The notes under the pieces are model-generated. The model did not search any database. It saw only the letters and a list, made by a program, of their open reading frames with translations, and was not told the origin of the DNA. A DNA stretch of 64,000 nt, taken from NCBI RefSeq assembly GCF_004799665.1, contig NZ_CP031310.1, positions 1,480,887 through 1,544,886 of the forward strand, in the 5' to 3' direction. The translations under genes were made by a program, and so were the position numbers. The stretch comes from Halapricum salinum (GTDB lineage: Archaea; Halobacteriota; Halobacteria; Halobacteriales; Haloarculaceae). Each line of letters begins with the position of its first letter. The stretch's first letter is position 1. This document shows positions 16,988 through 29,624 of the stretch, piece by piece.

Positions 16988-17461
16988 ATGCCGATCGAAC
17001 CCGGTGACACCGTCACCATCGAGTACGTCGGCCGTTTCGAGGACGGTTCTATCTTCGACACCTCGCGCTACGAAGTTGCCCTCGAACACGGCCTCGACGA
17101 CGCCCAGGACGCCGGCCCCGGCGACTACCCCGCACTCTCTTTTACCGTCGGTGCGGGCGATATCATCGAGGGACTAGATAATTCCCTTGTGGGTATGAGA
17201 GATGGCGAGGAAGCGACGGTCGAGGTCACACCAGAGAGAGCATACGGCGAGCACGACCCCGATCGAGTCCGGGAGTACGATCCTGATACCTTCGAAGGAA
17301 TGGTTGGACAGGAGCCTGCAGTCGGGCTGCACGTCCACGCCCAGAACGGCTTGCACGGTGACGTGACGGCCGTCACCGAGGATAGCGTGGAGGTCGATTT
17401 CAATCACGAACTCGCGGGCAAAACACTGGTTTTCGAGATCGAAGTCGTCGATGTTCGCTGA
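16988..17461 (+). CDS. FKBP-type peptidyl-prolyl isomerase (SlyD-like)
   Basis: A 157-residue protein with the archaeal FKBP layout. The N-terminal FKBP part has VTIEYVGRFEDGSIFDTS, and an inserted-in-flap chaperone domain follows (about residues 80-130, with PERAYGEHDPDRVREYDPDTF). The C-terminal strand is VDFNHELAGKTLVFEIEVVDV, the NH-P/ELAGKTL signature of the SlyD class. It speeds proline isomerisation during folding in the cytosol. The ATG at 16988 follows a likely short leader. Confidence 0.93.
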   Translation: MPIEPGDTVTIEYVGRFEDGSIFDTSRYEVALEHGLDDAQDAGPGDYPALSFTVGAGDIIEGLDNSLVGMRDGEEATVEVTPERAYGEHDPDRVREYDPDTFEGMVGQEPAVGLHVHAQNGLHGDVTAVTEDSVEVDFNHELAGKTLVFEIEVVDVR

Positions 17462-17468
17462 CCTTCTC

Positions 17469-17554
17469 CTATAGTAGCCATTGAAAATCAATGCACACAC
17501 GATCGCACGACAACAGTGCGATCGGTGTGTAAATCGTTTCAATTGTTACTATAG
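17469..17554. repeat. 86-base palindromic element between convergent genes
   Basis: The left arm (17469-17508) begins CTATAGTAGCCATTG and ends GATCGCAC. The right arm (17516-17554) is its imperfect reverse complement and ends CAATTGTTACTATAG. The loop is GACAACA. The reverse complement of the right arm has TAGT, 11 bases, CGATTTAC, then 13 bases. The palindrome at 28963-29042 has the same plan. It could work as a two-way transcript terminator for the flanking FKBP and YbjQ genes, or be a small mobile palindrome. Confidence 0.9.
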
Positions 17555-17558
17555 TCGA

Positions 17559-17915
17559 TCAGTCGAGTCTGACTGCGGTCCCGTAGGCGATCACTTCGGA
17601 GGCTCCTTTCGTCACTTCGGACGTCTCCAGCCGGACGTTGACGACAGCGTCGGCCCCCATCTCGACGGCGTTGGCTTCCATCCGGGCGATGGCGTCGTCA
17701 CGGGCCGTCGCGAGCAGCGTCGAGTACGCTTTGAGTTCGCCGCCAGCGAGATTACGGAACCCCTGGGTGATGTCACGGCCGACGTTGCGGGCTCTGACGG
17801 TGTTGCCGCGCGCGATCCCCAGGACCTCGGTGATCTCTCGGCCGGGGACTGTCTCTGTGGTGACGGTCGCGACGAGGGTCTGTTCGGTCTCCGGGTACTG
17901 TGTCTGGGTCGACAT
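17559..17915 (-). CDS. YbjQ-family (UPF0145) protein
   Basis: A 118-residue cytosolic protein of the YbjQ/heavy-metal-binding-like family. Recognisable stretches are TTETVPGREITEVLGIARGNTVRARNVGRDI and MGADAVVNVRLETSEV. Members form oligomeric rings and have no firm biochemical role. The gene's 3' end abuts the 86-base palindrome. The ATG at 17915 is the obvious start. Confidence 0.88.
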   Translation of the reverse strand: MSTQTQYPETEQTLVATVTTETVPGREITEVLGIARGNTVRARNVGRDITQGFRNLAGGELKAYSTLLATARDDAIARMEANAVEMGADAVVNVRLETSEVTKGASEVIAYGTAVRLD

Positions 17916-28583: not shown

Positions 28584-28943
28584 ATGTCAGAGGCACAAAC
28601 CGTCACGGAGAATCCGGGTATCGCGCGCGAACTTACCGCGTTCCAGCAAAATATCCTCGTTATCCTCGCCGAGGAACCTCGCTACGGGCTCGCTATCAAG
28701 CGAGAACTCGAGTCGTACTACGATTCGGAGGTCAATCACGGGCGACTGTACCCCAACCTCGACGACCTCGTCGAGATGGACCTCGTCGAGAAGAGCGAAC
28801 TCGACAAGCGGACCAACCAGTACGCTCTGACTGACGAGGGTTACGAGGCCGTTCTCGACCAGCTTCACTGGGAGTTCTCGAAGATCGTCACCGACGACGA
28901 CCGCGCGAGCGATCTCCGTGACCTGATCGACGCCGTCAACTAA
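28584..28943 (+). CDS. PadR-family transcriptional regulator
   Basis: A 119-residue winged-helix protein. The FQQNILVILAEEPRYGLAIKRELESYYDSEVNHGRLYPNLDDLVEMDLV stretch is the PadR core, with the HGRLYPNL wing. The C-terminal helix (LDQLHWEFSKIV) mediates dimers. The target is unknown, and no efflux gene is next to it. An inverted repeat overlaps its own promoter, which suggests autoregulation. Confidence 0.9.
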   Translation: MSEAQTVTENPGIARELTAFQQNILVILAEEPRYGLAIKRELESYYDSEVNHGRLYPNLDDLVEMDLVEKSELDKRTNQYALTDEGYEAVLDQLHWEFSKIVTDDDRASDLRDLIDAVN

Positions 28944-28962
28944 CCACTTCGACGGCAACTGA

Positions 28963-29042
28963 TAGTGATTATTGTAGGTCTGTTCCGGATCGACCGCCCG
29001 ATTGTGGGCGGTCGTACCGGTAAATCGCTACAATAATCACTA
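28963..29042. repeat. 80-base palindromic element between convergent genes
   Basis: The left arm 28963-28999 starts TAGTGATTATTGTAG and ends GACCGCCC. The right arm 29006-29042 is its reverse complement apart from a central mismatched stretch. The loop is GATTGT. As in the palindrome at 17469-17554, the reverse complement of the right arm has TAGT, 11 bases and CGATTTAC at the same spacing. It separates the ends of the PadR and rnhA-operon genes. Confidence 0.9.
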
Positions 29043-29063
29043 AGAAGCGGCGCCACCCCCAAA

Positions 29064-29624
29064 CTACTGCAGGCGGTCACCGTCTGCTTTTTCGAGCGCG
29101 TATTCGACCGACAGCGACAGGACTTCCAGTTGCTCGTCATTCGGCCAGCCGTTTCGCGGGAGATACTCCTCGCGAAACTCCGCGAGTTCACTCTCGGTGA
29201 GGTCGCCGATCGGTTTCGCGTAGTGATTGCCCGCGAAATCAGCCAGTGCGTGGGCCGTCTCGCCGTGTGGATCGCTGTGGTCGTCCGCAACAGCCTCGGC
29301 GATCTCGCGGTTGTGTTCCTCTATGGCGTCCCAGTCGTCGCCCCCGCCCGGGCCCGACAGCGAGCGCTCGACGCCGCGGTCGACGTTCTCGATCTCACTC
29401 GGGTAGACAGTTCCCTCGTCGTCGACCCACTCCTCGGGATAGCAGACGAGCGTGTCGTCGTCTTCACGGATCCGCGCCGTGTAGCCGTACTCGGTCAGCA
29501 TCTCGTCTCGCTCGGTCCGATAGGCGGCCGCCTCTTTTCCGTCGACGGCCCGGCGCGCGAGACGGGTCAGTCGTTCGGCCTCCTCGATTACGTCGGCCGG
29601 GAGTTCACTCACCGAATCAGTCAT
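29064..29624 (-). CDS. RNase HI operon protein
   Basis: A 186-residue acidic protein that overlaps the rnhA reading frame by eight bases (29617-29624). It resembles the haloarchaeal proteins named rnhA operon protein (recalled). Residues 1-55 are helical with an EAERLTRLARRAVDGKEAAAYRTERDEML segment. YPEEWVDDEGTVYPSEIENVDRGVERSLSGPG and the later NHYAKPIGDLTESELAEFREEYLPRNGWPNDEQ are conserved-looking. No enzymatic motif is seen. Confidence 0.8.
   Translation of the reverse strand: MTDSVSELPADVIEEAERLTRLARRAVDGKEAAAYRTERDEMLTEYGYTARIREDDDTLVCYPEEWVDDEGTVYPSEIENVDRGVERSLSGPGGGDDWDAIEEHNREIAEAVADDHSDPHGETAHALADFAGNHYAKPIGDLTESELAEFREEYLPRNGWPNDEQLEVLSLSVEYALEKADGDRLQ

Follow-up and report, generated by a model that had tools for sequence, protein, structure and literature searches.

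The window, by which we mean the whole 64,000-nucleotide stretch analysed here, covers positions 1,480,887-1,544,886 of a 3.45-Mb single-contig genome. It holds two palindromes of 80 bp each, hereafter type B and type A, and our gene calls agree with an earlier note on this DNA that both lie between convergent genes (Table 1). Folding gave both palindromes a 15-bp outer stem, a 7x7 unpaired internal loop and an inner stem, and the folds were far stronger than those of shuffled sequences (z = -7 to -9). Thus the two long palindromes with one spacing plan described previously do exist, and the series of TAGT, 11 bases and CGATTTAC is read on the minus strand of both window copies. Other details have to be adjusted. 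The span 17469-17554 contains a real palindrome, but its outermost bases are flanking sequence. Moreover, CGATTTAC is not a stem sequence: the internal loop has CGATTTA on one of its sides, so that conservation is highest in an unpaired segment, and pairing is confined to the outer and inner stems.

Table 1. Positions in the window of the two palindromes, their flanking duplications and the neighbouring genes
Feature	Position	Strand	Remark
FKBP-type prolyl isomerase	16988..17461	+	B copy; convergent gene on the left
Left TA of 2-bp target duplication	17470..17471	.	B copy; CTA ... TAG
Type B palindromic MITE, 80 bp	17472..17551	-	TAGTAACAATTGAAA CGATTTA CACAC...; five further host-genome copies
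CGATTTA side of 7x7 internal loop	17530..17536	-	B copy; sub-terminal transposase-end motif
Right TA of 2-bp target duplication	17552..17553	.	B copy
YbjQ_1 family	17559..17915	-	B copy; convergent gene on the right
PadR-like regulator	28584..28943	+	A copy; convergent gene on the left
TGA, one copy of 3-bp TNA target duplication	28960..28962	.	A copy
Type A palindromic MITE, 80 bp	28963..29042	-	TAGTGATTATTGTAG CGATTTA CCGG...
CGATTTA side of internal loop	29021..29027	-	A copy
AGA, second TNA duplication copy	29043..29045	.	A copy; one base decayed
DUF7108 protein	29064..29624	-	A copy; convergent gene on the right

Copies, covariation and genomic positions

Data from pattern and covariance-model searches, from which the host copy counts derive, showed that the palindromes belong to a large family. 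The pattern TAGT-11-CGATTTAC had 30 exact and 7 one-mismatch matches in the host genome, against 3 for the reversed control, in accordance with the earlier view that the plan is not due to chance. A covariance model built from 22 A copies, with strands merged and B copies set apart by hand, yielded the additional genomic matches that the note had sought from such a model, namely about 46 A-like loci. BLAST located 6 type B copies, the window copy included, and the host total of both types is about 52 copies. The length of 80 bp is almost always preserved. The same repeat was located in other genomes of Halobacteriales, e.g. Haloarcula and Halapricum; 28 of 59 haloarchaeal genomes of the order had matches, some of them dozens, and one genome (G030) had 121 pattern matches. 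Phage records and viral contigs gave no match to the palindromes.

Several variants and local accumulations were also seen. The PXQN01 contigs (MAG QH_10_67_22; many of loci L089-L168) carry very many A copies, and several A sequence versions each recur in identical form 15-22 times in the sample, the mark of a recent burst. At 1501-1540 of L005 (G000:206500) lies a minimal palindrome of 40 bp, which has the A outer stem around a 6-nt loop and TCA/TCA flanks. An element of ~110 bp, starting at about 1504 of L215 (G014), has A-type terminal repeats and a TGA duplication; its interior differs from A and is palindromic only in part. At about 1480-1580 of L066 (G021), two palindromes are apparently adjacent, with one TCA common to both at the junction.

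The observation that intervening bases differ while stems stay paired holds for the host copies and across genomes. Pairing holds for 91% of cells in the alignment of host copies, both-sided changes occur at 15 pairs, and cells changed on both sides number 72, compared with 12 that changed on one side. In a set of 20 copies, nearly all of them from separate genomes, 93.7% of cells are paired and covariation is seen at 20 pairs, with far lower values for slid and shuffled controls; kinship among copies inflates such covariation counts. Covariation extends to the inner stem (columns 23-37 paired with 44-58). Because G-U intermediates are scarce in the host copies and the two ends are matched to one transposase, the paired divergence looks like the product of a DNA-level process and not of RNA.

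Positions of 35 host copies, called with our codon-based gene caller, were nearly all intergenic, comprising 17 convergent, about 11 tandem and 6 divergent gaps. Convergent gaps are enriched relative to the window, a small baseline in which they account for 15 of 70 gaps (p about 3e-4), but half of the host copies occupy other places, some of them gaps between divergent genes. For about ten copies, the stop codon of a neighbouring gene is the duplicated TGA or TCA itself. We infer that the accumulation at stop codons and in convergent gaps reflects survival of harmless insertions.

The earlier note had offered a terminator family as one explanation; we take this to mean a family of RNA hairpins that would act as bidirectional terminators or 3′-end stabilisers between convergent genes. 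Strong hairpins, covarying stems and the enrichment above would all suit such RNAs, but the half of copies outside convergent gaps would not, nor would the absence of the hairpin from the same gene pair in eight relatives (see below). Oligo-T runs follow the hairpin in 3 of 58 flanks, both-sided changes greatly outnumber one-sided G-U changes, target duplications are unexpected for terminators, and an Rfam search with six loci returned chance-level matches only, none above the gathering score. The marks of archaeal terminator hairpins, namely location at gene 3′-ends, conservation at orthologous sites and a U-rich tail, do not characterise this family, and we consider the terminator explanation very unlikely. 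In the annotation of haloarchaeal genomes, these repeats could be taken for small RNAs or for conserved terminators.

Target duplications, nesting and empty sites

Identical 3-bp TNA flanks were found in 115 of 128 sampled type A copies (TGA 57, TCA 56, TTA 2), and the left and right flanks covary (TGA with TGA, TCA with TCA), as in a true duplication. Among host A copies, 21 of 29 have identical TNA flanks and the others are mostly one base off; the window A copy has TGA/AGA. Type B copies are flanked by TA repeats on both sides. One B copy has inserted into an A copy and duplicated a TA there, and in silico removal of the nested copy together with one TA restored the A sequence. In addition, the convergent PadR/DUF7108 pair that encloses the window A copy is present in 8 relatives in which the palindrome is absent. 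The empty gaps span 38-76 bp between aligned parts, the intergenic DNA being too diverged for a base-exact site.

Multiplicity, target duplications, nested insertion and species-specific presence all agree with the other explanation of the earlier note, a mobile palindrome. The elements are short and transposase-free with terminal inverted repeats (80 bp, 15-bp repeats), they duplicate their targets (TNA for A; TA for B, including the nested copy), and the plan and profile of their ends are common to IS630 elements of other haloarchaea. The palindromes are MITEs; the previously unexplained pair can now be assigned to a defined family of elements, for which the transposase family is identified.

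IS630 elements and the match of ends

IS630 elements were gathered from DDE_3 searches (8 and 146 genomes) and from a protein search (293 genomes), and their limits were set by terminal repeats and duplications, leaving the sub-terminal motif unused. Elements of a TNA group are 1.04-1.15 kb long, with TNA duplications and ends TAGTG, TACGG or TAGGG, and those of a TA group are about 1055 bp long, with TA duplications and B-like ends, TAGTA. The same two groups were obtained when ends were chosen blind to the duplication. Among multi-copy elements of five genomes, identical 3-bp TNA flanks in 17 of 20 copies confirmed the limits; their sites are mostly different, with flanks in common for two copy pairs. 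The partner transposases scored 199 and 264 bits on the NCBIfam IS630 equivalog (cut-off 100) and were found with DDE_3, as expected of IS630. The TA clade also has the TA target and 2-bp duplication of this family, from which the TNA clade departs.

The sub-terminal motif occurs in these elements as well. TNA-clade ends have TTTRC at positions 19-23 in 25 of 30 cases and TTRC at positions 20-23 in 30 of 30, where the left end of the palindromes has TTAC, and the clade carries TTTRCC at the same spacing as the palindromes. The A left end scored 16.2 bits on the TNA-clade profile vs -11.8 on the TA-clade profile, and the A right end matched the TNA profile weakly (5.3 bits). The B ends scored 11.6 and 9.7 bits on the TA-clade profile vs 5.6 and -9.9 on the TNA-clade profile. 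The best profile for each end agrees with its own duplication, A with TNA and B with TA. Since, judged by sequence, the two palindrome types match two IS630 clades in both end sequence and duplication type, the shared spacing plan is thus transposase end architecture. On the transposase tree, the duplication classes separate in 2 label changes vs 8.5 for shuffles, with L332, which has a TA duplication and a long branch, placed inside the TNA clade. Its long branches limit what this tree can say on the number of TNA origins.

One candidate parent was rejected. Locus L273 was first favoured as the autonomous element for its IS630 gene between matching ends and its TGA duplication. The same genome (G002) has three near-identical copies elsewhere, in unrelated flanking sequence, which showed the L273 element to be a different IS630 element with ends GAGTGGTC/GACCACTC, lying at 1353-2545 within the apex loop of an A palindrome.

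Proposed mobilisation and known systems

According to our model, the palindromes are very probably non-autonomous MITEs in which the left and right ends of an IS630-family element are fused back to back. An IS630 (DDE_3, Tc1/mariner-related) transposase supplied in trans would bind each end at the 15-bp terminal repeat and at the sub-terminal NNNTTTRCC-like motif, seen as the 'loop', and would then excise the element and insert it elsewhere. Type A would be moved by a clade whose transposases cut CTNAG targets with a stagger of 3 bp, which gives the TNA duplication, and type B by one whose transposases cut at CTAG with the usual stagger of 2 bp, which gives TA. We only infer mobilisation by these transposases, because DDE_3 and protein searches found no IS630 transposase in the host genome. 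This absence counts against the model. So do the failure to find an autonomous element with exactly the 15-bp A ends among the genomes searched (no long element with exact A ends among the fetched loci), the weak profile match of the A right end, and the TA-duplicating L332 inside the TNA clade. Covariation of the inner stem, of which no counterpart was found in the autonomous elements looked at, is likewise not predicted by end-binding alone. In a more specific version, which we hold tentatively and rate a little short of evenly balanced as a whole, a haloarchaeal clade of IS630/Tc1-mariner transposases would have changed its stagger from 2-bp TA to 3-bp TNA and given rise to a snap-back MITE, now widespread, in which the complete 80-bp hairpin, with the inner stem missing from autonomous elements, is maintained at the DNA level, either by a folding requirement for transposition or by copying of one arm onto the other.

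Other transposon families were also considered. The IS1031-like group of the IS5 family makes 3-bp TNA duplications, and an origin as MITEs of such a transposon was our first hypothesis. However, a TIR scan of DDE_Tnp_1 loci in eight genomes gave no such ends, which were found on IS630 elements instead; despite the fitting duplication type, an IS5 origin now seems extremely improbable. A hairpin with a conserved unpaired motif also recalls IS200/IS605-type or REP-like elements moved by a Y1 (RAYT) transposase, for which hairpin and mismatch would form the recognition signal, and the related haloarchaeal PATEs are common in Haloquadratum (PMC3119063). IS605-type elements and PATEs are without duplications and without terminal inverted repeats (PMC3119063), whereas the palindromes have both, and the covarying TNA flanks contradict such a mechanism, so we give it hardly any credence.

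The IS630 MITE model places the palindromes beside several known systems. According to published accounts, TA is both the insertion site and the duplicated sequence of IS630/Tc1/mariner elements (PMC2170065). Like ISY100 of this group, the partner elements have a DDE_3 transposase, N-terminal HTH domains, a length of about 1.1 kb and inverted ends, and the TA clade and type B retain the TA duplication; the duplication of the TNA clade and of type A differs from it in being 3 bp long (TNA within CTNAG). ERIC and other bacterial palindromic MITEs are similarly short, intergenic, high-copy, imperfect and transposase-free palindromes (PMC10969869), but the present elements are 80 bp long and archaeal, type A has a 3-bp TNA duplication, and the partner transposase family is identified. 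The SMRs and PATEs of Haloquadratum are also short transposase-free haloarchaeal repeats, and SMR HqIRS41 likewise has 80 bp, a comparison by length alone and not by sequence (PMC3119063). SMRs and PATEs were reported without target duplications, and SMR ends match no known transposon (PMC3119063); the palindromes differ on both counts. MITEs and IS630 elements are already known, and our literature search found neither a TNA-duplicating IS630 group nor such 80-bp repeats; because ISfinder and most subscription papers lay outside this search, their novelty is provisional. Eukaryotic Tourist/Harbinger MITEs are short and hairpin-forming with a 3-bp TNA-type duplication, like type A, but their mover is the Harbinger (IS5-like) transposase and not an IS630-type one.

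The TNA group offers a testable exception to the TA-duplication rule of IS630/Tc1/mariner elements, and the occurrence of related TA and TNA groups in one host lineage means that stagger-setting residues can be mapped. Many TNA-clade transposases (L280-L290, L292) are split over two overlapping frames, through programmed frameshifting or decay. In addition, a second IS630 sub-group (L303, L307, L308, L330) has ends TACT... and TNA duplications.
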